Positions 24,756 through 47,257 of a DNA stretch of 64,000 nt are shown piece by piece. The DNA is from Thermincola carboxydiphila. Its GTDB lineage: Bacteria > Bacillota > Thermincolia > Thermincolales > UBA2595. A program made the translations under genes and the position numbers. Position 1 is the first letter of the stretch; the number at the start of each line of letters is the position of its first letter. The stretch lies in the NCBI GenBank assembly GCA_016841725.1, contig JAENYP010000013.1:62001-126000 (forward strand). The letters run 5' to 3'. The notes under the pieces are model-generated. The model saw only the letters and a list, made by a program, of their open reading frames with translations, ran no database searches and had not been told where the DNA came from.

Positions 24756-25685
24756 TTAACCCTTTACAAAATGGCTTTGTAAAAATTTTTTTGCATTACG
24801 CCAGAAAACATGTTCAATTTCAATTTCAGTCAACCCGCTTTGCTTAAGATACATTTCTAACATTACGAGCCCTGAGATTGAATCCATACTTCTGATACTA
24901 GAAGTTTCAACTCCATATAGGGTTTCGAGTTCTTGGTAATTAAAATAATCCGGTCCTAAAGCTACTCTGTTTAAGCCTACAACCTCAATTAGGTGAAGAA
25001 TATGTTTTGCTATTGTTTCAACCGTTGCATTTCTTTCATTTGGTTTCATTGACGCATTAGGTGAAATTGAGTCGTCAATGAAAGGTACTCCATACAGTTC
25101 TGCATCGCACATACACAATTCTTCATCGCTCATTGCATTGCTTCTGTGCATTAAACTCCAATTTAACAATGATTCACAAACCACATGCGATACAATCCGC
25201 TTACCAGGAAACTTCTTAATAATCTTGTAGAGTGCCTCACCATGCAAATGACTTAAATCCAGTTTTATTCCCAGTTCATGCATCATATTAAGTAAAAGTA
25301 TACCATCTTCTGTCAACCCAAGTACTTTATCAAAAAAACGGTTAGAACCAATATGAGCTATTTGTATAGAACATAAACCTAGACCTTTCATTGCAGCTAA
25401 TATTTTTAGATCTTCCAACAAATCAATGCCTTCCAAGGCAAAAGCTATTTCCGCTTCCTCCATAAGGTTTATTTCAGCTTTACAAGCAAAATTTCTCCAT
25501 TGATGCATAAAGTGGATAATTGCTTGCTCATAACCATTTGGCCAATGGTTGGACCAGTTATAATATTTATTTATCAGATCAGCATTCCACTCAATATTAA
25601 CTAGTGCTCCAAATACCGGTAACGATGTTATTCCGGCAGGCCAATCATGCAAATGAATTGGACACCATCCCTTCAACGACAACAC
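24756..25685 (-). CDS. Peptidase M19 (membrane/renal dipeptidase)-like protein in the RiPP cluster
   Basis: A 309-residue protein that follows the M19 amidohydrolase pattern. HLHD at 11-14 corresponds to the HxD metal motif, LEGI near 85 carries the bridging Glu, SIQIAH near 105-110 and DLSHLH near 142-147 match the two metal histidines, IVSHVVC follows, and LGPDYFN near 241 matches GSDFDG with the Asp. Family enzymes hydrolyse dipeptides, including D-residue ones. Similarity is distant and its usual EGGH motif is altered. It starts 7 bases after the neighbouring radical SAM gene, so it belongs to the cluster. Possible jobs: trimming the peptide or removing a dipeptide. Confidence 0.65.
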   Translation of the reverse strand: MLSLKGWCPIHLHDWPAGITSLPVFGALVNIEWNADLINKYYNWSNHWPNGYEQAIIHFMHQWRNFACKAEINLMEEAEIAFALEGIDLLEDLKILAAMKGLGLCSIQIAHIGSNRFFDKVLGLTEDGILLLNMMHELGIKLDLSHLHGEALYKIIKKFPGKRIVSHVVCESLLNWSLMHRSNAMSDEELCMCDAELYGVPFIDDSISPNASMKPNERNATVETIAKHILHLIEVVGLNRVALGPDYFNYQELETLYGVETSSIRSMDSISGLVMLEMYLKQSGLTEIEIEHVFWRNAKKFLQSHFVKG

Positions 25686-25692
25686 CTCAATC

Positions 25693-27081
25693 TTAATGAG
25701 CCTGATTTACGAAATAATCTCTGGCTTCGCCCATAATCATCTTAAAATAATTCACAGCATGGGTGTAGTTGGCGCTCCCCTGTATACCGTATTCGATTAA
25801 CTTTTCAGAGGCTTCCAAACACCAACTGTACCTGTTTTCAATGTCTGCAAAACCATTAGGACCTTGCCAAAATTTCCATCCTTTCGGTCCGTCAAGATGA
25901 TGCAGGCCAAATTTGTCGCGTTGTTTCCACAAAAATGTACCCTTCGGAATGCAGAGGGGGTTAACAGCAACACTTTTTAAACATCCAGCCAAGTTTTTAA
26001 TTGTAATTAGGTCATGTTCAAAATCGCTTCGACTCTGGAATGGATAACCGCCTATTATAAGTCCAATTGAAGGCTTAATTCCGGCTTTAGCAAGTTGCTG
26101 TACTACCTTTACAGAATTATCAGTTCTTGCGGCTTTGTTTATCTTCTTTAAAAATTTCCGAGAAAAAGTTTCAACTCCAATAAATACATCCTTACATCCA
26201 CAGACTGACATCATATCAGCAATTTCAGAATCAATTCCTTCAACCTGAACCATCCCATCCCAACTAATATTAAACCCGCTCAATAACTGCAATAGTTTTT
26301 TAAACTCTTCCTTTGATGCGTTAATGAGTGAATCACAAAACGATATATGTATATTCCTACTTTTACAACTAAGCAATTCAAGCTCCTTGTACAACCGAAG
26401 AAAAGACTTGTTCCGTCGTCTACCCCACATAAGCACATCATTACAAAATCCGCAACAATTAGTGCATCCCCTTGATGTCTCAATAGGAAAAACGTTTTTA
26501 CGAGCATATTTATCTAGTGGAAATTTACTGAAATCCGGTATTGGCAAATCATCTAAAGATTCCAATTGATTTTTGTGAATCATCACCCTATCATTTACTC
26601 CATTATTTTTAAGCCATTCCTCAAAAGCTGTTTCCCCTTCCCCACAAATAATTGCGTTATAAGGTCCGCACGACACGACTTCTCTAGGTACATTAAAAAA
26701 AGCCGGCCCACCGGCGACAATTTTTAAATTTGGGTATAATTTTAAAAACTCATGTGCACAAATATTTGCAATGTCCTTCGATGTATCATTTACATGAACT
26801 GCTAAAACTTCTGGAGAACTCCCCTGCCGCTCAGCGAAACATTTGATTTTCTCCCTCAAATAAATAGTGATATTCCGAACATATTCCGGTTCTGACCAGC
26901 AATCAAAGGATTCTTTCTGCCAATAATTCTTCTCTTTATAAGTCTCAGAATAAAGTATTGCATTCAAGTCGAAAACAGTTACTTCATGTCCCATTTTAAC
27001 CGCTATCGATACAAGAGAGGCTACACCTAATAAAGGATGATCCGGTGAAGCTGGTGGTGGAATAAAAAAAACAATCCTCAT
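25693..27081 (-). CDS. Cobalamin-binding-type radical SAM enzyme
   Basis: A 462-residue protein. The N-terminus (MRIVFFIPPPASPDHPLLGVASL, then GHEVTVFDLN) is the B12-binding Rossmann fold used by class-B-like radical SAM methylases. The cluster motif SRGCTNCCGFC near residue 205 is Cx3Cx2C for the 4Fe-4S cluster. Later blocks IGVETFSRKFLKKINK and PSIGLIIGGYPFQ are the usual core strands. Known relatives methylate unactivated carbon or rearrange rings; the substrate here is presumably the cluster peptide. It follows the UvrA-like gene after 47 bases. Confidence 0.85.
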   Translation of the reverse strand: MRIVFFIPPPASPDHPLLGVASLVSIAVKMGHEVTVFDLNAILYSETYKEKNYWQKESFDCWSEPEYVRNITIYLREKIKCFAERQGSSPEVLAVHVNDTSKDIANICAHEFLKLYPNLKIVAGGPAFFNVPREVVSCGPYNAIICGEGETAFEEWLKNNGVNDRVMIHKNQLESLDDLPIPDFSKFPLDKYARKNVFPIETSRGCTNCCGFCNDVLMWGRRRNKSFLRLYKELELLSCKSRNIHISFCDSLINASKEEFKKLLQLLSGFNISWDGMVQVEGIDSEIADMMSVCGCKDVFIGVETFSRKFLKKINKAARTDNSVKVVQQLAKAGIKPSIGLIIGGYPFQSRSDFEHDLITIKNLAGCLKSVAVNPLCIPKGTFLWKQRDKFGLHHLDGPKGWKFWQGPNGFADIENRYSWCLEASEKLIEYGIQGSANYTHAVNYFKMIMGEARDYFVNQAH

Positions 27082-27128: not shown

Positions 27129-29324
27129 TTAGAAGTACATCTTCCAGACATTATCCGGACATTGGCTGCCTGGTCCTTCATACATTATAGTTAGAGCATT
27201 ACCTTTTCGCTCCCCAAGGAAAACAAGCCAATCTGCTTTTTTTGCAATAGCTGGATTATTTTCAGCAATGACTACTGTGTTTTTTCTTGCTGTTAACTGT
27301 CTCAAAATATCAGCTAAAATAGAAACAGCCGAATCTCCAATACCCCTAAAAGGGTTGTCTAAAAGATATAGCGCCCGATTACCGTATTTCTTACAAAGCT
27401 CAACTGTAAGCTTAACACGTTGACTTTCCCCTCCACTTAGTGAATTAGAAGGTTGACCCAAAATCAGGTACTCAAGCATTAAATCCGACAACCAATCAAG
27501 ATAATAACAAACTGCAGCAGTTTCTTTAAAGAACCCTTCGGCTTGCCTAACATCCATTTTGTTGATATCCGCAATACTCTGTCCATGATATAGACAGCGC
27601 AAAATATGTTGACGATACCGGGACCCATGACAACCAGGGCAAACTTCATATCCATGTTCAGTTTTTTCAAATCCCTGACCTTTGCATTTGCCACATTGTC
27701 CTTGTTTGGTATTAAAGCTAAAATGGCTTTCAGTTAATTTATGTTTTTTTGCCTCCGGCAGCCCCGCAAATAAATCTCTAATCTTACTCCACAACCCTAT
27801 GTATGTCGCCGGCGTACTGCCTGGATGCTGACCAATTGGATCAGGAGTTACCATATGAGGACGCCTAATTGCATCATGATTTTTTCTTTCAATCAACTTG
27901 CTACGCCCCTGCCATGCTACAGGCGTTTTATCGCAAATCGCATATGCTGCGTCAAGATAAGAAGTTTTGCCTGAGCCAATGGGTCCACAAATACAAGTCC
28001 ACCGTTCCATTGGTATATTTACTTCAAAATTCACAAAGTTATGCCATTGGCTGAACTGGCCAATAAGAAATTTAGGTTCATTTGGTCTTTTTGTACGGGA
28101 GTCTTTGAAAACATTTGGATACCGGCACTGCATTTGATTTAATTTTGGTGCCTTTTTGATAAAGTATTCTTTCGCTTTCCCCTCAAAAACAATTTTACCA
28201 CCCCGTGAGCCAGATTCGGGTCCAAAAGCAACCACTTTATCAGCCGCCGCAATTACTTCAGTCCTGTGCTCCACCACAACAACAGCATGTCCCTTTTCCT
28301 TAACATCCTGCAGAATTTCAATAATCTTTTCTGCCTCAGTTGGCAACAGTCCTGCCGTAGGCTCATCAATAATAATCAGTGAATTCTTTTTTGGACCTCT
28401 TAAAGATAGAAACAATCGTAAGTTTCGCATTTCGGAACCACTCAGCCCGAACACGGGATCAAACAAGTTTAGCTTTTCCAGTTTCAAAAGCTTCAACCAT
28501 TTCAACTCATCTGAATCGAAATTAATCAATCCCCGTTGTATCAGGTCGTCCAGTTCACCTTTGACATCATCCCCAAGATTACCTATAACGCCCTTTCCCT
28601 TACAAGTTCCACAAGCATGTTTTTTTAAATAATAGGGAATCTCTTCCTCTAAATCCTTTAGACTTTTACTTGAATATGGATGAGCCAAATACTCTTGTAG
28701 TGAAGGAATTATGCCCTTAAAATATTCCGTTCCCTCAAAGAGTATCTTTATGCGAATCTCTTCATTAATTTTTGACCATTCCAAAGATGGATTGCACAAA
28801 TATTTGCTGCAAAAACGTCTCCATGTTTGTGTATTCAATCCAGCTAGTTTTTTTACCGCAGGGGTAAATACACCGTTCGTTACTGCATAATTGCTTTTTT
28901 TAACAATACGTGATGGATCTATATCTTTTAAATATCCCTTACCATGGCAGATATGGCAATTCACTATATTTGAAGGATTAACCTTTGAGATATTATTTAT
29001 GACTTCTGCAGAAAAGCCTGTAAAATTACCTATATTTTCAATTTCACTATCTGAATACAACTGCTGCTCAATACCAATTGTTCTAGTAGGCAGTCCACTA
29101 ACTTTAAAATCACTGCCGCTCTTCCGGAAAAACTTCAGTACACCGGAAGCTGTTCCTTCGAAAGCCGCTGCTGCATAAAGCACATCAAAAGCAAGAGAAG
29201 ACTTGCCACTGCCGCTAGGGCCTACAAATACCGTCAGTGATCTGTATTCTATATCAATGTTAACATCCTTCAAATTATTCACTTTAGCGTTTCTAATCTG
29301 AATCGGTTTCCTTCCCACCGTCAT
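27129..29324 (-). CDS. UvrA-like double-ABC ATPase
   Basis: A 731-residue relative of excinuclease UvrA (usually about 940). First ABC: Walker A GPSGSGKSS at 35-43, zinc CxxC pairs at about 123-126 and 238-241, signature LSGSE near 294, Walker B IIIDEPTAGL near 322. Second ABC: Walker A GPIGSGKTS near 447, CGKC/CPGC zinc module near 541-560, signature LSGGES near 625, and Walker B LYLLDNPFRG near 650. In the last, the catalytic Glu of LLDEP is Asn. The region that binds UvrB in true UvrA is shortened. No uvrB or uvrC is nearby. UvrA-like proteins in antibiotic clusters can protect DNA from the product. Start ATG follows a 12-base gap from the previous gene. Confidence 0.85.
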   Translation of the reverse strand: MTVGRKPIQIRNAKVNNLKDVNIDIEYRSLTVFVGPSGSGKSSLAFDVLYAAAAFEGTASGVLKFFRKSGSDFKVSGLPTRTIGIEQQLYSDSEIENIGNFTGFSAEVINNISKVNPSNIVNCHICHGKGYLKDIDPSRIVKKSNYAVTNGVFTPAVKKLAGLNTQTWRRFCSKYLCNPSLEWSKINEEIRIKILFEGTEYFKGIIPSLQEYLAHPYSSKSLKDLEEEIPYYLKKHACGTCKGKGVIGNLGDDVKGELDDLIQRGLINFDSDELKWLKLLKLEKLNLFDPVFGLSGSEMRNLRLFLSLRGPKKNSLIIIDEPTAGLLPTEAEKIIEILQDVKEKGHAVVVVEHRTEVIAAADKVVAFGPESGSRGGKIVFEGKAKEYFIKKAPKLNQMQCRYPNVFKDSRTKRPNEPKFLIGQFSQWHNFVNFEVNIPMERWTCICGPIGSGKTSYLDAAYAICDKTPVAWQGRSKLIERKNHDAIRRPHMVTPDPIGQHPGSTPATYIGLWSKIRDLFAGLPEAKKHKLTESHFSFNTKQGQCGKCKGQGFEKTEHGYEVCPGCHGSRYRQHILRCLYHGQSIADINKMDVRQAEGFFKETAAVCYYLDWLSDLMLEYLILGQPSNSLSGGESQRVKLTVELCKKYGNRALYLLDNPFRGIGDSAVSILADILRQLTARKNTVVIAENNPAIAKKADWLVFLGERKGNALTIMYEGPGSQCPDNVWKMYF

Positions 29325-29335
29325 ACTCCCATCCC

Positions 29336-30904
29336 CTATTTAGAGTAAAGGCCTCTAGAAAACTTATCTGATAGAATTAACGTATGCGCTGTAGTTAAAC
29401 AATTCTTACTCCCACCATGTCTATCAAGAACCACATCAATGATTCCATCAACTTCAGCCATGTTCAAAATAATTTGTTCAAAGCCCTGGACATCAGGGTA
29501 AGTCCAGCAATCCGGGGTCGTCTTGGATATTACCTTGTCTGTTTTCAATAATTCCTGCCAGACTGGTGATTTCTCATAAAGAGTAAACCCGGACACGCTA
29601 ACCATATCAATCCATTGGGCATGATTTTTAATGAAAGTAACAGTTTTGCTCCAATCATTATCTGTTTCCATGGGAAAACCTTTCATCAAATAGACATGTA
29701 CGACAATATTCGACTCTCCCAAAGTTTTTAGTACTTCGGAAACTATGTTAAGATTTATTCCTTTATTCATACGGTCCAGCACTGAAGGTGATGCACTTTC
29801 GAGTCCCAAGCGCAATAGACGGCAGCCTGCCTGATATAAATTGTTTGCGGAGCCAGGATCAGTTAAAAAAGAAGAAAACCTAGCATTCCCCCCCCAGACT
29901 AGAGAATGGCATTCCGACTGGTTTATCAAAAACTTCATTGTTTCTTCGGTAAGTTCCGCATCAACAAAATATATTCCTTGTGCGCCATAACGCTTAGCTA
30001 TCAAGTACATTTGTTCAATTCGTTCCCTAATCAAGCTGCTCGTTTGATTTATTTTTTTAGAATAGCGGGCGTCAGCACAAAATGTACATTTGTTCCATGA
30101 ACATCTTGGAAGAACTCTATAAGGCAAAATTAGTCCTGGCGCCCAATAATGTTGAAGAGGGAACCTTCTGAAATCAGGAAAGCCTTCCGGCGTACTATGA
30201 TGAGTCAAGTAGTCCGCCAGCCACCATTTTTTAGCAAATCGGACGCTTCTGCCAGGAATCCACTGCCCTTCAAATTTTTCCATCCCTGTGAGCGCGTCTC
30301 CTCCTGGACCTATAACAATACCGTCAATCACATCCCAAAATGGAGTTGCCTCATCGATATAATCCTGAAATGTAGTAAATAAAGCTCCACCAAGAATTAC
30401 AGAGATATCTACGTTCTCTTGTTTTAACCTGTGAGCTATACATATTGCAGGTAGTAATTGGTCTTCATAAGTTACAGATATTCCTATCCAATCTGGGCGA
30501 AATAATCGGATACTTTCGAATATGTTTGATTGTCTGCTCCAAATAAAAAAAGGGTTAGTTGGATCATGTGATAGTTTCTTGATATTATTTAGGTTTTGCC
30601 ATCCTCCTGGTATTTTACATCCGTTTAAGGAAAAAACATATCCAGGAAAATTACAACCCAGATTTTTCAAACTACTAAACAGAACTTTCCCCATGTTATG
30701 GTATAAATCCTCTTCCGTAGCATCTTTTTTTTGGGGCCAAGGATAAATATTCTCAGTTAATATCCTGCTCTGCCAAAAATCAAGGTTTGCATCCAACACC
30801 AAGTGTTCAATTCCAGCCTTACTTAAAGCATCGGAGACATATGCCAAACCTAACACTGGCATGGAAGGATCTGAGAATGGTGGTTGAATCAAAACACCCC
30901 GCAT
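29336..30904 (-). CDS. Cobalamin-binding-type radical SAM enzyme
   Basis: A 522-residue protein. The N-terminal MRGVLIQPPFSDPSMPVLGLAY and the block DWIGISVTYEDQLL...VILGGALF form the B12-like Rossmann domain. The cluster motif PRCSWNKCTFC near residue 270 is Cx4Cx2C, a spacing seen in some B12/radical SAM proteins. LGLESASPSVLDRMNKG and YLMKGFPMETDNDW follow as core strands. It differs clearly from its two relatives in the cluster, so the three probably act on different positions. It lies 16 bases after the 451-residue gene. Confidence 0.85.
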   Translation of the reverse strand: MRGVLIQPPFSDPSMPVLGLAYVSDALSKAGIEHLVLDANLDFWQSRILTENIYPWPQKKDATEEDLYHNMGKVLFSSLKNLGCNFPGYVFSLNGCKIPGGWQNLNNIKKLSHDPTNPFFIWSRQSNIFESIRLFRPDWIGISVTYEDQLLPAICIAHRLKQENVDISVILGGALFTTFQDYIDEATPFWDVIDGIVIGPGGDALTGMEKFEGQWIPGRSVRFAKKWWLADYLTHHSTPEGFPDFRRFPLQHYWAPGLILPYRVLPRCSWNKCTFCADARYSKKINQTSSLIRERIEQMYLIAKRYGAQGIYFVDAELTEETMKFLINQSECHSLVWGGNARFSSFLTDPGSANNLYQAGCRLLRLGLESASPSVLDRMNKGINLNIVSEVLKTLGESNIVVHVYLMKGFPMETDNDWSKTVTFIKNHAQWIDMVSVSGFTLYEKSPVWQELLKTDKVISKTTPDCWTYPDVQGFEQIILNMAEVDGIIDVVLDRHGGSKNCLTTAHTLILSDKFSRGLYSK

Positions 30905-30920
30905 TCGATCACACCTTATC

Positions 30921-32276
30921 CTATCTTTTAATCCATAAAGCCAGCCGTTTAACTTGCCTGGGTAATAAGGGAGTTATACTGCCGACAATACACAACACTT
31001 CATTGAAATTTATCTCTTTTGAATGTAGGACATTCGGGCTAATCAAATATCGACCTGTTTCTATTTTTTGAGCGACCCTATCTAGCCAATCATGAAATAA
31101 ATAGTCCATATTGCTATCTAATATTATCGTGAGCCAATCCCGGTTTCTTGCCCATACAGTTTTAATGCCATTCGCTCCGTCCAGCAATGTGCTTATATGA
31201 AAATTACCTAATACAGTTAATTGAAATCCCGATTTTTTTTTATCTATAAGTCCCCATCTAATAGCATGCTGTAGATGCTTTTCAAATGATTCTTGAATTA
31301 ACAAAAGGCAAACTTGTCCTAGTCCATTATTGTAGATTCCGCTTTTTATATCCAGTTTATCAATAGTGCCTTTTCCTATCAGACAATACCACCATTCCAT
31401 AAAGTGCCTGAAAGTATTTACCGCACTAACATTTAAGGCCAGCCATTCACAATCCACACGTTCGAAATAATGTTCCCAGATTCTTTTATTTTCAAACTTT
31501 TTATTATAAATACATTTGTAAAAACTCAGCATTTTCTTAAAACTTACATCATCGCTAAATGAAGCATTATCATGAAAGCATTGTATTTCTCTTTTCATTT
31601 GCTCATATTGAAAACGCATGATTCTCCAATGCAATACCCCGTTTTCATTTTGCCATATCAACCGAATTAACCATTTTTCACAAAGGCTTTCTACTGTGTT
31701 GCTCAACAATTTTTCGTTTTCCCCGAAAACGCACGCCGCTTCCGCCAAAGTGAGCCCGGGTCCACTCAGAGCATTATACAGCGTCATTTGCTCTAAATTT
31801 AAACTATCCAAACAATTTCGCCGGTAAGATTCAAATGAATCTTGAGATTTAAAAATATCGCGAAAAAGTGACCATATTACTAATTCTTTGGGTTTGCGGC
31901 TTAATCTTTTGACGAAAGGCTTTAGAGACTGGCTTTGAAATAAGGAGGTTAGAGACCTTTTGGAAACTCTTTTAAAATCCGTATCGAGGGACCATGGTTC
32001 AAGACTCGGAAGAGCCCAATTCCTCCAAAAAGCTTCCAACGAATCTTTTACTTCTATTTTATTTAGACGCCTTAGCCCTCCACCCACATATTTTATTAAT
32101 CCAGCAGCTTCAAACGGTTCGAGCATAACGCGTACTTGTTCCGGATATAACTGAGATTTTTGGGCCAAGGTATAAACCTTTATCCTTCTGGAGCGTCTTT
32201 TCGTAGAAGTGATCCATCTTATTAAGTCGGCAAATAGAACTGGTACACCATCATGTATCCTTGCTAATATCATCAT
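30921..32276 (-). CDS. Unknown 451-residue protein with winged-helix-like segments
   Basis: I do not recognise this as a named family. The N-terminal 70 residues (LIRWITSTKRRSRRIKVYTLAQKSQLYPEQVRVMLEPFEAAGLI) look like a winged helix. A second one is suggested near 165-210 (LYNALSGPGLTLAEAACVFG...). The C-terminal 90 residues (WLTIILDSNMDYLFHDWLDR...GRYLISPNVLHS) vaguely recall the XPB/Ssl2 N-terminal-like domain of bacterial DNA-associated proteins. Its start overlaps the PqqD-like gene (ATGA), so translation is coupled. It may regulate the cluster, or work with the UvrA-like ATPase on DNA; both are guesses. Confidence 0.6.
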   Translation of the reverse strand: MMILARIHDGVPVLFADLIRWITSTKRRSRRIKVYTLAQKSQLYPEQVRVMLEPFEAAGLIKYVGGGLRRLNKIEVKDSLEAFWRNWALPSLEPWSLDTDFKRVSKRSLTSLFQSQSLKPFVKRLSRKPKELVIWSLFRDIFKSQDSFESYRRNCLDSLNLEQMTLYNALSGPGLTLAEAACVFGENEKLLSNTVESLCEKWLIRLIWQNENGVLHWRIMRFQYEQMKREIQCFHDNASFSDDVSFKKMLSFYKCIYNKKFENKRIWEHYFERVDCEWLALNVSAVNTFRHFMEWWYCLIGKGTIDKLDIKSGIYNNGLGQVCLLLIQESFEKHLQHAIRWGLIDKKKSGFQLTVLGNFHISTLLDGANGIKTVWARNRDWLTIILDSNMDYLFHDWLDRVAQKIETGRYLISPNVLHSKEINFNEVLCIVGSITPLLPRQVKRLALWIKR

Positions 32277-32581
32277 TCTATTGATTCCGTAGGGGATTTT
32301 GCATCAAGCAAAATTCCATTTTCAAGGTAGAATGTGAAATATTCCTCAAGCCGAGATATAAGTCCATCTTTTTCATATACCTCCTCAAGAAGGCGAGCGA
32401 TTTCTCCAATACTTCGTTTACCGTTGCATAACTCCCAAACAGCAACCGCGTCCTCATTAATTCTAAAAATTGGTAGGTTTCCACTAATTAGCATTCCGCC
32501 AAATGCTTCTTTTCTCATTTTTGTCCTGGGTGCAGCGACTGGAATAATCTTCTCTATTTCCTCAAAAATCAAAACCAACAC
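32273..32581 (-). CDS. PqqD-like peptide recognition protein (RRE)
   Basis: The 102-residue sequence follows the PqqD fold: three strands up to GGMLISGNLPIFRINEDAVAVWELC, then NGKRSIGEIARLLEEVY and a final wing. PqqD-type RiPP recognition elements bind the precursor leader and hand it to radical SAM enzymes. It sits between the two SPASM enzymes and the downstream genes and overlaps the next gene by ATGA. The presence of a discrete RRE is the strongest single argument that this cluster makes a ribosomal peptide. Confidence 0.85.
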   Translation of the reverse strand: MLVLIFEEIEKIIPVAAPRTKMRKEAFGGMLISGNLPIFRINEDAVAVWELCNGKRSIGEIARLLEEVYEKDGLISRLEEYFTFYLENGILLDAKSPTESIE

Positions 32582-32596
32582 CTCCCATCGCTATTT

Positions 32597-33592
32597 TTAT
32601 AGCTCCAACGAATCGTACCCGTCAATTTTGTTACAGTTAGCAACAGAAACTGCACGGCACCCTCCTCCACAGATATCCAAATATTTACATTGACGGCACT
32701 CCAATGGTATATGATTCCTTTCTAAATAACTATCCCTGATTTCCGATAATGCAAGTTCTGATAGTAGTCCTCCATTAAACACGTTTCCTAATTTTATTCT
32801 TGACATACCGCATGTAAGAATATTACCTTTTATATCAATATAAAACTTATCCACGCCGAATGAACACCGATTACATAAAGATTCATGGCGTTCTTCCAAC
32901 TCGCACCTTGGCATTGCATTAGCCAACAAAAATTGAACATCTGTTTTTTTGCTAATATTAACTAAATTGTCAAGTGCTTCAATAAATTTTAGTCTTGATA
33001 CTTTAAGTTCCAGTGCTTCCTGACCACATCCACAAGGAATAAAACGAGTTACCGTCATTTCGCGCATCCCTAGTTCACTATGAAGGGACATCAATTTTTC
33101 GAGATTATCGCGATCGGAATTCCAGGCCGTTAGTACCAGATTACTTGCAACACGTATTTTTGCGCCAATACACCATTTAATAGCTTGAACTGTTAAATCA
33201 AAACTCCCTGACACCTGAGTTAGTCTTTCATGAACAGATTTTGGTCCGTGTAAAGAAAAATTAACACACGCTACTGGTTCACTTATTAATCGTTCAAAAT
33301 TTTCCATTGTTCCAAAGTTAACCCCGTTACTTTGCACCATTACCCTGGGTATATGCTTACAAGCGTAATTTAATATATTAAAGAAATTCGGATGATTAGA
33401 AGGTTCTCCTCCTGTTAATACTAGTTCAAAAACGCCGTCGGACTCCAATCTGTCAATAATGTCGTATGCTTTCTCACAATATGTTGGCTCACACGAATTA
33501 TAGCAAAACTTACACTGAAGATTACATGCCTCAGTCAATTCCAATTCTATTTTTGTAACTGGAATTAATGCATTCATATTTATTTTCTCCAC
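32597..33592 (-). CDS. Radical SAM/SPASM peptide maturase (second)
   Basis: A 331-residue protein. CNLQCKFC at residues 23-30 binds the SAM cluster, VLTGGEPSNHP is the GGEP motif, and the C-terminal CNRC...CGMS...CRQCKYLDICGGGC is a SPASM-type set of cysteines for auxiliary clusters. Such enzymes install thioether or C-C crosslinks in peptides such as sactipeptides, ranthipeptides and PQQ. It overlaps the preceding SPASM gene by 13 bases and precedes the PqqD-like gene by 15 bases. Confidence 0.88.
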   Translation of the reverse strand: MEKINMNALIPVTKIELELTEACNLQCKFCYNSCEPTYCEKAYDIIDRLESDGVFELVLTGGEPSNHPNFFNILNYACKHIPRVMVQSNGVNFGTMENFERLISEPVACVNFSLHGPKSVHERLTQVSGSFDLTVQAIKWCIGAKIRVASNLVLTAWNSDRDNLEKLMSLHSELGMREMTVTRFIPCGCGQEALELKVSRLKFIEALDNLVNISKKTDVQFLLANAMPRCELEERHESLCNRCSFGVDKFYIDIKGNILTCGMSRIKLGNVFNGGLLSELALSEIRDSYLERNHIPLECRQCKYLDICGGGCRAVSVANCNKIDGYDSLEL

Positions 33593-34587
33593 TTCCTTGT
33601 ATCTGGGGTCAAACAGGCCTTTTTCAAAGCATCATCATACCCTAAGCAACCTCCGCGACAGGAATTTAATTCTTCGCATTCAATACACGCTTTAGTCACA
33701 TGAATACAATTAGAAAACTTCTCCCATCCATCAGAATTCCAAATGTTTTCAAAAGAATTTTCCCTTAAATCACCCATTACTTCATCGGATAGAGGACATG
33801 GTGTAACAACTCCAATGGGAGAAATGCGACATACACCATATCCTACCTGACAAGGAGTATTCCAATAGCGTAGCTTTTCAACATATTCGGCGCTCAATTC
33901 ACAGTATGGAACAGGTCCTGGCAATTTTACTTCTTTATATGTTTTAAAGTCATTGGCTATTCGCTCCAGCGAATCCAATACTTCTATAGTTTCTTGTTGC
34001 CCAAGCAACCGACTTTGTTCCTTAGGATTGTTTAATATATATCTCGTTACACAAAAGACATGTAAACCTTCACTTGCAAACGATTTAGCTATCTCATAGA
34101 GCTCGCGGTAATTATCAGTAAATGTGCAAACGTTTATTTCTACCTTTACATTTTGTTTCAACAAATTATCTATACCTCTAGATACTCTATTATATGAACC
34201 AACATAACCAGTCAATTTATCATGTTTTTCTGGGTTAGATGATAATACCGAAACACATACACTAGGAAAATATTTGGCAATTTCAATCGCTTCATTTTCA
34301 CCTATTAACGTAGCGTTGGAGTTTAGATGTAAATCAAATCCAAGAGAATGAGCATAATGTGCTATTTCAAAAAAGTCTTTCCGAATTAAGGGCTCTCCTC
34401 CGTTAAAGTTAATAGAGTATACCCCGATTGCATGTAACTGATCAAGAATAGATTTAATTTCATTCAACGAAAGTTCACTATTACTTCTACCACCCATCTC
34501 ATTGTAGCAAAAGAAACAACTTTGATTACAGCTTGACGTCAATTCAAATTGTATGTAAAAAGGTGCCGATGGCCGTTGAATAATCAA
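33580..34587 (-). CDS. Radical SAM/SPASM peptide maturase (first)
   Basis: A 335-residue protein. SSCNQSCFFCY at 18-28 carries the Cx3Cx2C motif, NFNGGEPLIRKDF is GGEP, and the SPASM region has CQVGYGVCRISPIGVVTPC and CIECEELNSCRGGC. It is the first gene after the precursor peptide, separated from it by a terminator-like hairpin. A GGAGG lies upstream of the ATG. Likely reaction: crosslinks on the Cys-rich core, such as Cys-thioether bonds to alpha or beta carbons. The residue positions cannot be predicted from sequence. Confidence 0.88.
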   Translation of the reverse strand: MIIQRPSAPFYIQFELTSSCNQSCFFCYNEMGGRSNSELSLNEIKSILDQLHAIGVYSINFNGGEPLIRKDFFEIAHYAHSLGFDLHLNSNATLIGENEAIEIAKYFPSVCVSVLSSNPEKHDKLTGYVGSYNRVSRGIDNLLKQNVKVEINVCTFTDNYRELYEIAKSFASEGLHVFCVTRYILNNPKEQSRLLGQQETIEVLDSLERIANDFKTYKEVKLPGPVPYCELSAEYVEKLRYWNTPCQVGYGVCRISPIGVVTPCPLSDEVMGDLRENSFENIWNSDGWEKFSNCIHVTKACIECEELNSCRGGCLGYDDALKKACLTPDTRKWRK

Positions 34588-34612
34588 TCTGGATACCTCC
34601 TATATTGTGAAA

Positions 34613-34639
34613 ATAACCCGGGCTTTTGACCCAGGTTAT
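34613..34639 (-). terminator. Hairpin between precursor gene and maturation genes (attenuator)
   Basis: A 10-bp stem ATAACCTGGG/CCCGGGTTAT (one G-T pair) with a 7-base loop is followed by TTTTC on the minus strand, 23 bases after the precursor stop. It should stop most transcripts and let a fraction read on into the enzymes, giving the excess of precursor that RiPP clusters usually have. Confidence 0.75.
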
Positions 34640-34662
34640 CTAATCATTTATTTTTCTGATTT

Positions 34663-34809
34663 TTACCTGCAAGCGGTACAAGCGGTGCAAGCAGAACAGG
34701 CCATAGATTTTTCCCCTAATTTCAGAACAACCTTTTCAGACTTGTCGTCAAACGGCTTTTTAAAAGCATCAAAGACTTCTATTTTAGGGTTAAATACTTT
34801 CTTTTTCAT
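34663..34809 (-). CDS. Putative RiPP precursor peptide, 48 residues, C-x2-C-x2-C-x2-C core
   Basis: The minus strand frame starts at ATG 34807-34809 with GGAGGT about 10 bases upstream and ends at TAA 34663-34665. The leader begins MKKKVFNPKIEVFDAFKKPF and is lysine/aspartate-rich with spaced Phe/Val/Leu. The C-terminus is MACSACTACTACR: four cysteines (38, 41, 44, 47) at exact three-residue spacing separated by S/A/T. It has its own promoter and terminator hairpin and sits among radical SAM/SPASM and PqqD-like genes. The short repeating Cys core resembles thioether-forming peptides in general, but I cannot assign it to a named family. The opposite-strand frame covering this stretch is a shadow. 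Confidence 0.85.
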   Translation of the reverse strand: MKKKVFNPKIEVFDAFKKPFDDKSEKVVLKLGEKSMACSACTACTACR

Positions 34810-34846
34810 TCTTCATCTACCTCCACTTTACTGTTACATTACTATT

Positions 34847-34923: not shown

Positions 34924-36495
34924 TTATATTAAATCACCACTCAAACCATGTCCTGATGACAATTTTGGCAAATCAACATTTAAGTATTTTTCTAAAAGTT
35001 CTTTTTTATAGGCTGCAATATTGTCTAACAGTTTTTCCTTAATTGAATTTAATTCCGTGTTATCAGGCAAACAATTTCCCATCGTAGCAACCAGTGCATC
35101 ATCAATGACGCTACCCATCCTGCGATAAGTTTTTTTCATCAGAAAAAGGAACTGATTTACGGAAATCTGCGACCGATAAAAATATTGCTTTAAATCGTTA
35201 AAAACTATGTCCAGTAGTGCCAACCTACAACTGTCCACTAGTTCCCAAAGTATTCTCATTCGATGGTCTTCAATTTCCCATCCATAATTTTCATTAATAC
35301 TGATTCCTCTTCCATCACAGTCCTTGTCTTTTGATATCATTGTTCCCTTATACATTTTCAAACGAAATAAAAGCTGCGTATGGTCATAACCGATCTTTTT
35401 CAAAATCGCATGGTCTCTATAAAATTGATCTATAGTTTTTCCTGGACTGAAGAGAATTGTTCCTAAAACATAATCAATACCCGCATTCTCTAGAATATCA
35501 ATGGCCTGCAGATTTCTTACAACCATCATACTTTTACCAAATAAATTTAACGTTACTTGGTCAAATGATTCTACGCCTAAAAAAACTTTAGATACACCTG
35601 CAACCTTTAAATAATTAATTATTTCTGGGTTAATTGTATCCGCCCGGGTATCAATTTCGATACTCATGTCTCCATCATTCAACTGTGCCAGCTTCTTTGC
35701 CAATAACATGTCAAGTTCTTTTTCGTTATTCTGTCCTAAGAAAGTTGCATCCATAAACCAATAGTCGCGTATTTTACTTTCCCTTTTAAGTACCGCTATC
35801 TCCTGCACTAAATCATCCGTATCCCGCACCCGTCTTCTTCGGGTATCTCCAGATAACATTTGCATTGAAGCAATACTACAAAATGAACAGTAATGATTAC
35901 ATCCTCTTGAGCGTTCAAGAGCAATTTTACGGCATCCTTTTTGAAATTTTTCTAACGACCCCAATAATTGTCTATCCGGTCTTACTAATGCAGATAAATC
36001 AGCAACCTTATTTAGACGATTGAGGACGGCTTTTCCATTATCATTAAAAGCAATTCCCGGTATCGTTTCAATCTGATTACGCTTTTCAAACGCATTACTT
36101 ACTGCAACTAATGCAAGTTCTCCATCACCAACAATACAATAATCGCACGCAGGATTAAGTACCAATTCATTCCAATGAAAAGTAGCAAAATAACCCCCAG
36201 AGATGCATAAAATCGAATTGTTTATTTCTTTAATTTGACCCATGACACGTAAAGATTCTTTCCAATTGGCATAGTTTAAGCTAAATGCAACTATATCAGG
36301 GTCCTCTGACAATATACAGTCAGCCAAACAATTCAACGAGATTTTTTGAATTAAGCTGTCAAACTGAACTGGATGATGTCCTGACTTTAGGAGAGAACTG
36401 GAAAGGATTTCGATGCCAAGATGATTTATCACGGGGGATGCAGGAGTAGCATCTACTCCCAATGTTAAATGAACCAAAGCAACTTTCAAGCTCAT
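34924..36495 (-). CDS. Cobalamin-binding-type radical SAM enzyme, first gene of the cluster
   Basis: A 523-residue protein with an N-terminal B12-like Rossmann domain (VALVHLTLGVDATPASPVINHLGIE...DPDIVAFSLNYANW...ISGGYFATFHWNEL) and the radical SAM motif RSRGCNHYCSFCS near residue 197 (Cx3Cx2C). VSKVFLGVESFDQVTLNLFGK is a core strand. The C-terminal 120 residues are helical. It stands alone upstream of the precursor promoter; its own leader carries the second copy of the 17-bp motif. GGAG precedes the ATG at 36493-36495. Likely a methylase or epimerase-like modifier of the peptide. Confidence 0.85.
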   Translation of the reverse strand: MSLKVALVHLTLGVDATPASPVINHLGIEILSSSLLKSGHHPVQFDSLIQKISLNCLADCILSEDPDIVAFSLNYANWKESLRVMGQIKEINNSILCISGGYFATFHWNELVLNPACDYCIVGDGELALVAVSNAFEKRNQIETIPGIAFNDNGKAVLNRLNKVADLSALVRPDRQLLGSLEKFQKGCRKIALERSRGCNHYCSFCSIASMQMLSGDTRRRRVRDTDDLVQEIAVLKRESKIRDYWFMDATFLGQNNEKELDMLLAKKLAQLNDGDMSIEIDTRADTINPEIINYLKVAGVSKVFLGVESFDQVTLNLFGKSMMVVRNLQAIDILENAGIDYVLGTILFSPGKTIDQFYRDHAILKKIGYDHTQLLFRLKMYKGTMISKDKDCDGRGISINENYGWEIEDHRMRILWELVDSCRLALLDIVFNDLKQYFYRSQISVNQFLFLMKKTYRRMGSVIDDALVATMGNCLPDNTELNSIKEKLLDNIAAYKKELLEKYLNVDLPKLSSGHGLSGDLI

Positions 36496-36893: not shown

Positions 36894-38369
36894 TTAACTC
36901 CTTGATTCTTTAAATTCAGCTTTTACTTTTATGTCCGGTATGGATTTTCCTCGAAACTCAGTGTCTATGATCCCTAGTTGTGTTTTTATGACTCCTCTCA
37001 TCTTAAGGGCCGGATGTAGACAATAATGTTCAAATTCTTCTATATTTAACTGGTTTGAATTTCTAATATTAGGAAAAATCAATTTTAAGAATCCTGTACA
37101 AATCCTTTTGATTGCCTCAGTATCTCTAGTAGCAGCATTTTTCGGTACATCTAATACCTCATCAACAACAGCACGGTAAATCAATTCACTTCTAAGTAAA
37201 TGTACTATTTCCGTAAAATACTCTACATTCAAAGCCCATCCATTTACTTTCAAACTTTCACGCATTTTAGGAATTTCCCAACCTTTAATAAATCCGTGGA
37301 AACGATCTATCAGTGCAGATTCATGAAATATTTCTGGCAAGTTAGTAAACATATTGACATTAACGTCCATCATACTTTCATCAATGTTTCCAAGTAAGAT
37401 GAGACCTGATTCGCCAATACCCCTATAATTGCCTATTCGATACTCACCAGTTGGGCTTTCCAAATACCCTTTTAACACGCCCTGCATTTCATTTTTATCC
37501 GGGAATGATATAGTTTGTATCTCATCAAATGCCACATAATCATAATGAGAAGCAAGACCTGTTGTTCTTTTTTGTTGATCATAAAACATCTTGGCTCTTG
37601 ATATACTGCCCCCGCTTACAAGCCATCCGTACTTACTAATTTGAGCAAAAAGATATGATTTCCCAGTCTCCTTTGGTGCGAGCTCGATTAGGTTAACTCT
37701 TTTCTCAACAAAAGGTAGGAGTCTACTAAGCATGGCCATTTTCTGTTCCTCACCTGTGTAGCCGTCAGGGTTGTAATCTATAGCAGCGAGGAGCACATCT
37801 ATCCATTCTTGTGTAGAAAATTGTTCCCGGGCCTCTACATAGTAATCAAGTTCAATATTATAAGGACAGAACGGGCTAAAATCAGTCATTTTAATAATAT
37901 TCTTTGCTTTTGAATCAGACTTTCTGTCACAGATTAGCTCTACAATTCCCCAAACCTCATTAGGGGAAAGAAGATATTCCTTGTTGGCTTCGACGACACT
38001 CCATTCGACAACAGCTTCGTCCTTTTTCTTGGGAACGCCAAAGTCAGGTAAGGAAAAGTATGCAGTACTTGTTGCGATGTCTATTTCAATTTTAACCTTA
38101 GCCAGAAAACGCTCACTTTGCATATTTCTTGTCATGTTATATTTTATTTCTTCCCACTGTTCTTGCTTAGGAATAACCTTTTTGACGTATGCGGCTACCT
38201 CTTGTTTGTCAATTTTACCATTCTCATCAGCAAACTTCATTAAAAGCCAGTCCCTCATAAAAGAAGGCAAACTCAAAGTCGAAAAAAATTTACCTTGTTC
38301 CGGTGATTTATACACCAACATATCTGGGAAGCATCGTTTTAATTTATCAGAAATCACAAGATCACCCAC
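36894..38369 (-). CDS. brxL: BREX protein BrxL (short form)
   Basis: A 491-residue protein of the Lon-like BREX AAA family: LIELAPKETGKSYLFAQISK is the P-loop, YDYVAFDEIQTI the Walker B, and GNIDESMMDVNVNMFTNLPEIFH...DRFHGFIKGWEIPKM the arginine-finger/sensor region. Classical BrxL is about 680 residues and ends in a Lon-protease-like domain; this one ends after the ATPase, so that domain is missing or very short. BrxL forms DNA-binding rings needed for phage exclusion. The start is GTG, overlapping the PglZ stop (TAGTG). Confidence 0.88.
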   Translation of the reverse strand: MGDLVISDKLKRCFPDMLVYKSPEQGKFFSTLSLPSFMRDWLLMKFADENGKIDKQEVAAYVKKVIPKQEQWEEIKYNMTRNMQSERFLAKVKIEIDIATSTAYFSLPDFGVPKKKDEAVVEWSVVEANKEYLLSPNEVWGIVELICDRKSDSKAKNIIKMTDFSPFCPYNIELDYYVEAREQFSTQEWIDVLLAAIDYNPDGYTGEEQKMAMLSRLLPFVEKRVNLIELAPKETGKSYLFAQISKYGWLVSGGSISRAKMFYDQQKRTTGLASHYDYVAFDEIQTISFPDKNEMQGVLKGYLESPTGEYRIGNYRGIGESGLILLGNIDESMMDVNVNMFTNLPEIFHESALIDRFHGFIKGWEIPKMRESLKVNGWALNVEYFTEIVHLLRSELIYRAVVDEVLDVPKNAATRDTEAIKRICTGFLKLIFPNIRNSNQLNIEEFEHYCLHPALKMRGVIKTQLGIIDTEFRGKSIPDIKVKAEFKESRS

Positions 38370-40639
38370 TAAATATTAAATTTATCACTATCAGTTCGAC
38401 CTTTAATAATTCTAAACTCAAATTCATCTATATTGCCCTTACTAGAGATTTTGGCTACGTAAAGTTCTTTTTTACCGATTTCCGGCTCAAAATACCAATA
38501 ATCATCTTCTTTCCGACAGACGTATTTTCTTGCATCAACAGTCGCATAAAGCTCGCTAAAAGGTTTGTCAATTTTAAATTTAACCTTTGGCAATAACCCA
38601 GCTTTCAGTTTTATTTCTGTGTCAATTGGTGTAACTACGGCCTTTTCTTCCAACGGGGTTCTTGACAGAATTATAATTGGAACCAATACTTCTTCTAGGG
38701 TTGCTCCGCCATGAATTTCACTTTTTTCATTACCGCCAATACTGAATCGGTCATAACTTGCAAAAACATGATATTCCTCTTTATCAATGCACCCGGAGTA
38801 CTGATTCTCGTATTGCACTTTGGAATCCTTGCAGTATCTGCCAAACCTTTCTACTTTTGCGTTATCGTCTGCTTTGAATGCAGTTCCCTTGTTTAATATC
38901 GCACCTCTACTTGCACCATGATCTGCTACAATCAATACCCTTTCATACACGTCTAGCTTTTGAACTGCAAACTTAATTACTTCTTCAACCAACCGCAATT
39001 CTTCTTCAATGCAAAAAGGGTAATTTCCTTTGTGTTTCAAATTATCTAAGTCCCTATAAGGTTCATAAGTTCTACCGGTAAGAAAATCTTTGTTAAACTC
39101 AGTGATTGTAGGAATGTCAGCATATCCAACATTTATGTTGTAATAAACACCCTTAAATCTCTGTTCTAAAACTGATTGTATTAAACTGAGAAATTCGACT
39201 CCAAGTGCATCAACCCAATAAATGAAAGAATTGTCAACGTAATTCTCGTTAACATAGCTATTTCTTGATCTTAGTTTCCACCAGACACCTTTTTCTGCCG
39301 CAAGCTCAGAGACCTTTTCGATGAATTCTTCGGTGAATGCATTTTTAATTTTTTGCATCTTATATTGTTTAAAATAAGTAGTGAGTAGTTCATCTTCAAA
39401 ACTAGATTCAGACATGTAGGCATGTAGACTCGGATATGCATATTCCAAATACTGAATTAACTTGTCATTAATGCTCGTTTTACCAATAAAACCTATGGCC
39501 TGTTCTCTTTCTGTTTGTGTGCAATATGTAAGATAATAAATTTTCTCGTTGTCTTTAACCTCTTCTAACTTCGCCCAAAATTGTAATGGTAAATCTTCTA
39601 TTTGCAAAGATTCAATTAACTTTCGGCGTTCAGAATAAACCTCTCTAAACAGAATTTCTTTATTTGAGTGCTTAAATATACTGTTTGTAATATTCTGTAT
39701 AAGTTCCTTGTAATTTTCAGTTTCGTTCACAACCGAATACAAGTAACCATTTTTAACTTCAAATTTAAGCCACAGCCAAATTAACCATTTTTCAAAATCA
39801 CCACTATCCTTCCATTTTGACAATAGGTGGGTTGCATCAATCTTGTCTATATTAAACTGGACTTCAAACAACGAATTTATATTGGTCTCAGTTTTCAATT
39901 TCACAAGTAAATCACGCCACTGCCAATCCTCTCCCATCTCTTCATTAAGATTATACGGCAACAACTTGTGAAACTTAATAATGTCATAGGCGTTTACAAG
40001 CACCCTAACATTGTCCGCAAATACATTTCTTTTATAAAATTTGGCATTATCAGTATACAATATGATAGGCTTCGCAGGATTATCTTCCCAATATTCGAGA
40101 TAACTTCTATAGCCTACTATAGAGTGACCTTTGATGGATATATCAATGTCCCTCGAAATTATTGTTAAAGAATAATCGTCGTCTTTGTCTTCAGCTTCTA
40201 AAAAAATCACGTTGTCATTTAAACGAGTATTTTGTGCCAAAAGCGATTGCAAGCAGTCTTTCATTCGGTACATTGGTATATAAACATGAATACAATTTGA
40301 AAAAACGTCATTCACATACTCAACGCTCATAATTTTGCTTAGAATTTCATCACTTTTAGTATTATTTATCCGCAAGTGTTCCGAAAGCGGGAAAAGCACC
40401 GTTCTATTATTTATTCCTTCTAATTCAGCACATAATCTATTTATTTTAGGGTTTAAATCTTCGCCAGCACAAAATTTTGAAAGACGTATCTGGTTTTGGC
40501 ATTTTTGTGCAAGATAATTTTTCACCTTAACCCATAAGTGCAAGCTCTCCACATTTATGAAACGAAATATTCGTAGGTCTCTACGTTTAGAATCTTCCGT
40601 TACAAATGCTTCAAATCCTTCAAAGGTAGAAATAATCAC
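38369..40639 (-). CDS. pglZ: BREX alkaline-phosphatase-like protein PglZ
   Basis: A 756-residue protein. The phosphatase core is visible as IYWVDALGVEFLSL near 475 (first metal Asp) and VLIVADHGASRGAIL near 570 (DHG metal motif), followed by EIHGGATLEEVLVPIIIL, the closing strand of PglZ domains. The N-terminal 350 residues are helical. PglZ is the marker gene of all BREX types. GTG start with a GGGGGGAAGCA box before it; the BrxC stop is 18 bases upstream. Confidence 0.9.
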   Translation of the reverse strand: MIISTFEGFEAFVTEDSKRRDLRIFRFINVESLHLWVKVKNYLAQKCQNQIRLSKFCAGEDLNPKINRLCAELEGINNRTVLFPLSEHLRINNTKSDEILSKIMSVEYVNDVFSNCIHVYIPMYRMKDCLQSLLAQNTRLNDNVIFLEAEDKDDDYSLTIISRDIDISIKGHSIVGYRSYLEYWEDNPAKPIILYTDNAKFYKRNVFADNVRVLVNAYDIIKFHKLLPYNLNEEMGEDWQWRDLLVKLKTETNINSLFEVQFNIDKIDATHLLSKWKDSGDFEKWLIWLWLKFEVKNGYLYSVVNETENYKELIQNITNSIFKHSNKEILFREVYSERRKLIESLQIEDLPLQFWAKLEEVKDNEKIYYLTYCTQTEREQAIGFIGKTSINDKLIQYLEYAYPSLHAYMSESSFEDELLTTYFKQYKMQKIKNAFTEEFIEKVSELAAEKGVWWKLRSRNSYVNENYVDNSFIYWVDALGVEFLSLIQSVLEQRFKGVYYNINVGYADIPTITEFNKDFLTGRTYEPYRDLDNLKHKGNYPFCIEEELRLVEEVIKFAVQKLDVYERVLIVADHGASRGAILNKGTAFKADDNAKVERFGRYCKDSKVQYENQYSGCIDKEEYHVFASYDRFSIGGNEKSEIHGGATLEEVLVPIIILSRTPLEEKAVVTPIDTEIKLKAGLLPKVKFKIDKPFSELYATVDARKYVCRKEDDYWYFEPEIGKKELYVAKISSKGNIDEFEFRIIKGRTDSDKFNI

Positions 40640-40657
40640 ACTGCTTCCCCCCTTAAC

Positions 40658-43600
40658 TTAGCATTTCATAATCTTAATACCTACTAATGGCTCATTTCTA
40701 ATTAGTTCTTTTAAGTAATTTATGACTTGTTCAGGAGGTAGTTTTTCTATTTTTTTAAAGACCTCGGTGTAATAGGTAGTTGTATACTTTTCAGTTGCGA
40801 ATTCTTTAATAATCGCATCAATGGAATTCTTATGAATAAACCATTCATACACATTGCTACCTAGTCGTTTGAATAATAAGTCTTTGATTTCTTCAATATC
40901 AGAAATCAGAACATCATATTCTCCGGAAACGAAACTTTTAAGTATCTCATTACATTTATCCATATCCTTTAAAAGGTTTATAGTTTTATTGGACTTAATA
41001 AATGATATGGCCTTTTCAATTTTTTCATCGCCCGTTGTAACTCTGCCTAAATTAATTAAGTCAAACACTTGTTTTGCTTCTTGTACCTGATCTTCAAATA
41101 AGCATAAGATAGGTATTTTATTTTTTGCAGACCAATCGAACGGAGTTTGAGTATCAGAACACAATTTCCAGGTTTCCACAAGTTCGTTATATTTTTTATT
41201 CTTTCGGTACCCCGCCAAGGCTTGTTTTAAAATTTGCTCATAGTCGTCTAAGGGTTTTAGAATGGCTTTTGATTCAGCTTGTAAATACAGGTAATCCACT
41301 TCATCGTCCAACAGCTCTGACCCGATTAAATCGTTAATACCGAATTTAAATACCTGTTGTTGTTTTGAATAAAAATTATTAAACTGGTCTGCGTTGGCCT
41401 CTAACCTATTTAAGAACACTGATTTATTTATCTCTTTAAAACTACTTGTCTTATAAATCATTATTAAATCCACGAACAGTTGGTTAAGGTCTGGGTTGTA
41501 GTTCTTGAAGAATTCGAATGGCATTTTTATTGCACTTATTCTGCTTCTAATGGTGTTTGCTGCATCATCCAACTTTGAAACTGGTTGAAATAGAATCTTG
41601 TTGACAGCATCAACTAGCTTATAATCAAAATAGACTTCCTCAATACGATCATCGATGGCACCTTTTTCCCAAAGCCATGAAGATGAAGCAGTAAGTTTAT
41701 TCTTTATTTCCCCGATGTAATCTTTACTGGCACCAAGTCTTTCAGCAATGGAAATTAGTTCAGGTTTATAATTTGATATATAGTAATCCATTCCCGCCTT
41801 TAGGTTATTACCGTTAAATACATTTTTTAAGTAATTCTTAATCCCAGCATCTTTCCTAAATAACTTAACGATTTCTTCTGCAATTTTTGTTTCATCTCGA
41901 CCAGGTTCTTTGTTGTAGGAAATAAATTCGCAATACAAGTCAATAACCGGTACAGTATCAGCAGCAAGTCCAAAATCATCATGCTTTTGGATATAATGCT
42001 TAAGCGCCCAAAGCGGGAAGTCGGTGTTAGGTAAGGCCGCTTTAATTCCCTTCATAATATCCTGAATGGAGTTCTGTTTATCCGAAGACAACTTGAAAAT
42101 CTCTCCTGAATACTTACAGAATAATTCGTGTTCCTCTGTCATTTTAACAATACAGAGTTTATCAGTATTCTTTAATCCTTTAATAACACCTACAATCATG
42201 TCTGCTAAATTATCATGTGTTAACGGTACATTATTGTTTATACCATCTTTTTTATAATAGCCACTGTCTGCGTATTCTCTGAGTAAAAAGCCGAGAATAA
42301 AGGCAGAACCGATACAGCCTAATAATCCAAAAGGTTTTTCTTTTAGAACGTTCCATATATCGATTACTGCAACACTACTCTTCGCATTAAAGTTATCCGC
42401 TACTAAATCCTCTACCGCAATTTTCATTTTAGACAAGGTATGAGCAGGAAGCACGGAGTAGTACTGCTCATTATTCCATATATTATCTTTAATCATGGCA
42501 TTTCTAAAAATTTGTAAATAATTAAAGTTAGCGGAAATCGCCATCTTATCCATTCCCATGGCTGGCACCGTTTCCTTGTAGCCAGATGGAGAAAACATTT
42601 TGTCGTGTGATGTGATACTCTCTAACCCATACGGATAAATCTTTGTATTTATTTCATTAAGCCGAACGTTAAACTGCCCAATTCCAATCAAAGAAATTGG
42701 TGAAACATTTTGAGAGTATAATTTAATTTGAGTATTGTTAATTTTGACCTTCCAAGTTTCAATCACCGTTTTAGCTTGACTCTCATTTAACTTCGCCTGG
42801 TTTACATCAACTTTTAGAAAATAACTAGATTTTACTTTACACTTGATAAAATTTTCGTATTCAAGTTCTGTCAAAGGCTGACTAGATATATCGGAAATCA
42901 CTATATCACGTTGCTGCTCCGAAAATGCGGTTTGAATTGCTGAATAGTTTTTTACGGAGTCTTCTTCATTTTTAGCAAATATGAAAATGAGAGGCACCTT
43001 ATTGGAATCTAAATTTTTAAGTCCTCCAAGTTTTAGTTTTAAGTCTCTATGCGTAGCACAGATAATCTCAAACCGAGCTAGCGCATAACCTGTAAGTGCG
43101 AAATTCCCAGTTACTGCGTAATTAGGACTATCAATTAGCTTTTCAAATGACAAGGTACTTCTTATTCCCGCTTCAATTTCTTTGTACCTACCCTCATCAA
43201 TAGACTGGGACTGAGTAACATAAAGGGTATCCGTTCCCTCAGGCATACTACCAAGTATACCTTTTTGGACAAACTTGTTCATAATATCGAGAACTCTATC
43301 AGCGATAGGTGTTCCAGCGAAGGCGGCAGATATATTTGAAAGCGTTGGTCTTAAGAGATTGGTAATCCCACGCCCTCTCTCTTGTTGGATGGCTGACAAT
43401 AGCAAAGCTACCTTCAATACCTTTATTTCATTATCATTATCACATTGCCCAACAAAGTTATTAAAATGACTTATCACATTCTTAGATTTTTCATCAAGGT
43501 CAATATTGTCTAATTCGAAAAAGTAATCCCAAATATAATCACAGGTGAGATATGCCCAATTGGTACTATCATGTTCCTCTATAAACCAACGGAAGTTATG

Positions 43601-44845: not shown

Positions 44846-44863
44846 TCCCCTACACTAGATTCT

Positions 44864-47179: not shown

Positions 47180-47257
47180 TTGTTGTCTCCTCCAATTAAG
47201 CCACGTCATTTAAGTTATAATAAATTGAAAACCCCGGCCGTTATGAGCTAACGAAGA

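Follow-up and report, generated by a model that had tools for sequence, protein, structure and literature searches.

A predicted RiPP gene cluster with a tandem Ala-Cys-X precursor and two SPASM radical SAM enzymes in Thermincola carboxydiphila

The precursor gene, its signals, and the genes around it

We analysed a stretch of 64,000 nt of Thermincola carboxydiphila (contig JAENYP010000013.1, positions 62,001-126,000), hereafter the window. The original prediction placed a 48-codon RiPP precursor frame at 34663-34809, with its own promoter and a good ribosome site, followed by an attenuator-like hairpin, two radical SAM/SPASM genes, and a gene for a PqqD-like protein. The frame lies exactly there, on the minus strand, with an ATG start, and it encodes the peptide MKKKVFNPKIEVFDAFKKPFDDKSEKVVLKLGEKSMACSACTACTACR. 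The features of the locus, in the direction of the precursor gene, are the following:

34924-36495, minus strand: B12-binding radical SAM enzyme upstream of the precursor, present in the window only, of uncertain cluster membership
34875-34847, minus strand: promoter-like site TTTACA-17-TATTCT with TG, a pattern match not clearly above chance
34820-34824, minus strand: GGAGG ribosome-binding site of the precursor, identified in the sequence 10 nt 5' of the ATG
34663-34809, minus strand: very probable RiPP precursor peptide gene, ATG start, 48 amino acids and stop (homologue at L009:13766-13912, minus strand)
34750-34794, minus strand: conserved leader segment FNPKIEVFDAFKKPF, a probable recognition motif, from the alignment of the two precursors
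34666-34701, minus strand: core of four Ala-Cys-X units, ACS-ACT-ACT-ACR, a 9-nt direct repeat at the DNA level
34611-34641, minus strand: hairpin with a 13-bp stem between the precursor stop and the maturase 1 gene, assessed by a shuffle test
33580-34587, minus strand: radical SAM/SPASM maturase 1, TTG start, GGAGG at 34597-34601, 52% identical to the homologue in genome G041
32597-33592, minus strand: radical SAM/SPASM maturase 2, 40% identical to G041
32273-32581, minus strand: PqqD-like, predicted leader-binding protein (PF05402, E 2e-7), 31% identical to its G041 counterpart
30921-32276, minus strand: 451-aa protein with a probable N-terminal winged helix, window only
29336-30904, minus strand: B12-binding radical SAM enzyme, conserved in G041 (28%)
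27129-29324, minus strand: UvrA-like ATPase that lacks the UvrB-binding region and has a degenerate second ATPase site, 32% identical to G041
25693-27081, minus strand: another B12-binding radical SAM enzyme, for which G041 has no clear separate counterpart
24756-25685, minus strand: M19-type (membrane dipeptidase family) metallohydrolase, conserved in G041 (29%)

The GGAGG bears out the claimed ribosome site. A promoter-like site is present as well, but matches of this kind (14 observed) are not far above the number expected by chance (8.3 +/- 3.0). The hairpin is a stable structure (z of -4.4 to -4.8 against shuffles, none of 200 shuffles being equally stable), but it is followed 3' by only a weak U-tract (AUUUUC), and none like it was found in the G041 stretch between precursor and maturase 1; it is a possible attenuator or processing site.

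Two radical SAM/SPASM genes and a PqqD-like gene do follow the precursor. The prediction had these four genes right but missed the conserved B12-type radical SAM enzyme, UvrA-like ATPase, and M19-type metallohydrolase. In both genomes, both SPASM enzymes carry CX3CX2C and the SPASM cysteines CX9-15GX4C ... CX2CX5CX3C, as read from alignments. The best model for maturase 1 is NirJ2 (130 bits against a cut-off of 500), and its nearest solved structures in the PDB are SkfB and PqqE. The PqqD-like proteins of both genomes score above the PF05402 gathering score (1.6e-5 in G041), and the B12-type enzyme has a CX4CX2C spacing in both; in G041 (L009:9329-11371, minus strand), it has a C-terminal extension of about 150 residues that the window enzyme lacks. 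In the M19-type protein, HxH replaces the HxD that is usual for the family, and the later Glu, His, His, and Asp positions are retained; these residue assignments are putative. The UvrA-like protein aligns with UvrA on either side of the UvrB-binding region and not across it, and its second Walker B/H-loop is altered (LDNP/ENN in one genome, LDSP/DNN in the other). A normal uvrA is present elsewhere in both genomes. PADLOC assigned the UvrA-like protein to mad3 and the maturases to viperins; we discounted both as matches at the superfamily level, because the scores of the UvrA and SPASM models are far higher.

The 451-aa protein has no match in Pfam or NCBIfam, and neither the 10 genomes of the window's class nor G041 gave a relative; its AlphaFold model (mean pLDDT of 36) was discarded for structure search. 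We recognised no transport gene or classical leader peptidase in the conserved set.

A second copy of the cluster in another class

A scan with maturase 1 of 399 genomes drawn from the phylum gave one close homologue, 52% identical, in G041, which belongs to a different class from that of the window. The class of G041 was represented by 3 genomes, none of which is among the 10 of the window's class. Directly upstream of this maturase, in the syntenic position, lies a 48-aa homologue of the precursor, MKKEFSPKIEVFDPFKVPFSSESEVVFDIRDMDACCACTACTACSACK, with a ribosome-binding site of its own. In all, seven genes have counterparts in the two genomes, in the same order: the precursor, the two SPASM enzymes, the PqqD-like protein, the B12-type radical SAM enzyme, the UvrA-like ATPase, and the M19-type metallohydrolase. 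G041 has in addition a methyltransferase and a third SPASM enzyme. Close relatives of the M19 variant occur in the same 2 of the 399 genomes as maturase 1, with two weaker M19 matches elsewhere.

The two precursors align with a BLASTP E value of 5e-16, and 27 of the 47 aligned residues are identical (given as 55% in the cluster comparison), both in the leader and in the Cys tail. When only the leaders are aligned, the score is 85, whereas 5000 shuffles reach 51 at most. Substitutions at codon positions 1, 2, and 3 number 15, 15, and 28, and 15 of the 27 identical residues are encoded by different, synonymous codons. The third-position excess indicates that purifying selection acts on the precursor frame. 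Given the syntenic homologue, the leader score, and the codon-position and synonymous patterns, we count the conservation of the precursor as more than chance, and 34663-34809 is very probably a real RiPP precursor gene. Conservation of leader and Cys tail beside homologous enzymes in another genome had been proposed as a check, and leader, tail, and enzymes were found together in G041.

The leaders share the motif F-x-PKIEVFD-x-FK-x-PF. The Cys-spaced core of the original prediction, ACSACTACTACR, was confirmed, although its repeat of variable copy number had been missed: the tail is best read, from the comparison of the two peptides, as a tandem Ala-Cys-X array with four units in the window and five (ACC ACT ACT ACS ACK) in G041, X being Ser, Thr, or Cys inside the array and Arg or Lys in the last unit. 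No Pfam or NCBIfam model, including those of SCIFF and other named precursor families, matches either precursor, in line with the earlier failure to place the peptide in a named family. The Cys repeat by itself is not diagnostic of the family: written as a degenerate DNA pattern, it is found in at least 120 viral stretches, and among the matches listed, all are repeats in unrelated frames and none has the precursor leader.

The family thus has two members, the window and G041, from one phylum in the draw of 399 genomes. No further member was found in the classes of the window (10 genomes) and of G041 (3 genomes) or in two other classes (83 and 13 genomes); a second draw of the phylum gave nearly the same genomes as the first. 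A scan of one genome per species with maturase 1, which reaches close relatives only, gave no further member either. Its only match, a 29% identical enzyme from Bathyarchaeota, has no Cys-triplet peptide beside it and is not a family member. Two 31% matches (L007 and L008) likewise have no Cys-triplet peptide alongside. A 39% second match in the window's own genome (E 0.36, internal TGA) was set aside as chance. We found no close relative of maturase 1 in viral contigs and plasmids, nor of the precursor in plasmids.

A proposed pathway and its alternatives

We propose that the locus encodes a RiPP precursor that is modified by the adjacent SPASM enzymes, with a probability of about 0.9. We favour this reading because a 48-aa homologue with the same leader and repeat tail lies in synteny beside a 52%-identical maturase, because seven genes are conserved in order and the M19 variant is found in the same 2 of 399 genomes as maturase 1, and because the precursor frame appears to be under purifying selection. 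The SPASM motifs are kept, a PqqD-like protein is present in both genomes, and the nearest structures, SkfB and PqqE, are those of SPASM enzymes that modify peptides, all of which also argues for it. It is weakened by the small number of members (two), by the lack of a recognised transporter or classical leader peptidase, and because SPASM enzymes also modify non-peptides, the best model for maturase 1 being NirJ2.

Judging from the protein families, the stand-alone PqqD-like protein would bind the leader through F-x-PKIEVFD-x-FK-x-PF and pass the peptide to the SPASM pair, whose two radical SAM enzymes would work their way iteratively along the tandem Ala-Cys-Ser/Thr units. The conserved B12-type radical SAM enzyme may then methylate the product; enzymes of this type often add methyl groups to unactivated carbons. 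By the same kind of family evidence, the M19-type hydrolase would trim the product and may remove residues or release units, and the UvrA-like ATPase may protect the producer. The candidate modification is a Cys-sulfur-to-carbon thioether crosslink, within or between units; the repeated radical crosslinks of the original prediction are likewise a plausible guess. If the product is a RiPP, we give this chemistry about even odds, and it is our leading guess because nearly every unit has a Cys and a Ser or Thr, and because Thr, Asp, and Asn are acceptors in ranthipeptides (PMC8326336). The system is small and testable, with a substrate of 48 residues, a natural internal repeat that varies in length, and a pair of SPASM enzymes, and it is suited to asking how radical SAM enzymes work iteratively on adjacent units.

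The best-surviving alternative is a variant of the RiPP reading that differs in its outcome: the Ala-Cys-X units, or the end of the tail, would be cut out as in PQQ or mycofactocin, so that one precursor would give several copies of a very small product, freed by the M19-type hydrolase. The near-identical tandem tripeptides of variable copy number, the conservation of this hydrolase, the lack of an exporter in the conserved set, and the PqqD and SPASM logic common to PQQ and mycofactocin are all consistent with such excision. Yet the units are not strictly identical (X is Ser, Thr, Cys, Arg, or Lys), and M19 enzymes are usually dipeptidases rather than endopeptidases. We hold excision to be unlikely, while giving it real weight.

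It is very unlikely that the Cys tail is left unmodified and makes the peptide a small metal-binding (Fe-S, Zn, or Cu) carrier or redox peptide, with the radical SAM enzymes acting on another substrate. Metal knuckles typically show such regular C-x2-C spacing, and many Fe-S enzymes are encoded nearby, but a conserved leader beside a PqqD-like protein and a SPASM pair is the standard RiPP arrangement, and metal binding has no need of the Ser or Thr that nearly every unit has. Finally, a chance frame running across the 9-nt repeat, with no gene, is hardly credible: unrelated sequence often contains such repeats, and there is an open frame on the opposite strand at 34663-34809 too, but the codon-position pattern, which fits the precursor frame, and the score of the conserved leader make it very unlikely that a chance frame, or the frame on the opposite strand, is what has been conserved, and the G041 homologue, with ribosome-binding sites and synteny, largely refutes it.

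Both RiPP loci adjoin phage-defence-type genes. In the window, a BREX-type operon (BrxL, PglZ, BrxC, and BrxP; 36894-47209, minus strand), probably BREX type 4 given these four components, lies immediately upstream of the cluster, and a SIR2-domain protein resembling ThsA-type defence (22935-24548, minus strand) just downstream. Near the cluster, at 19721-21014 (plus strand), lie transposase ORFs that seem to be split and include a Mu-type C-terminal domain. In G041, the cluster comes after tRNA-Thr and genes for PLD-domain, TOTE primase, and Schlafen/AlbA proteins (L009:14271-18889, minus strand). This setting, with BREX and SIR2 in one genome and TOTE primase and Schlafen-type genes in the other, would be compatible with a role in anti-phage chemical defence, in which the Cys-repeat RiPP made by the cluster would bind DNA and the UvrA-like protein would protect the producer. 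We consider this very unlikely, and the neighbourhood may simply reflect genomic islands, given a similar tendency among lanthipeptide clusters (PMC12715929).

Comparison with known systems

Self-resistance proteins of the DrrC type lack the UvrB-binding domain (PMC10413001). Like the UvrA-like protein described here, DrrC/Ecm16-type proteins are UvrA-like ATPases without the UvrB-binding region that are encoded in a biosynthetic cluster, in addition to a housekeeping uvrA. The clusters differ in their products, a polyketide or nonribosomal drug there and a radical SAM RiPP set here, and the second ATPase site is degenerate in both members here, which makes a DrrC-like role uncertain. A self-resistance role for the UvrA-like protein would suggest that the RiPP targets DNA, which would be an unusual property.

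The combination of a PqqD-type chaperone with SPASM enzymes is shared with the PQQ, mycofactocin, and GeoRSP systems. Maturase 1 passes none of their cut-offs (104 bits against 400 for GeoRSP, 125 against 265 for mycofactocin, and 87 against 381 for PQQ), the precursor is unrelated to theirs, and here there are two complete SPASM radical SAM enzymes. Ranthipeptides (SCIFF, freyrasin, and NxxcA) and sactipeptides (SkfA, subtilosin A, and ruminococcin C) likewise have a Cys core, a leader, and a SPASM maturase. They differ from the present system, whose core consists of tandem Ala-Cys-X units and which combines a stand-alone PqqD with two SPASM enzymes and with additional B12 enzyme, UvrA-like, and M19-type genes; the enzymes here score far below the cut-offs of the SkfB, AlbA, StsB, and PapB models.

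Radical SAM RiPPs with repeat cores, of the TvgA type, and Asp-Cys repeat peptides are already known, and in these, too, short tandem units are modified singly by a radical SAM enzyme and vary in copy number (PMC9062424). The units are TVGG or Asp-Cys there and Ala-Cys-Ser/Thr here, and the partner genes differ. Since no model matches the precursor, the maturases score far below the cut-offs of the named systems, and repeat-core RiPPs are known, the sequence comparisons indicate that this small-peptide system represents a new family of RiPPs, of a general kind already known, rather than a new kind.
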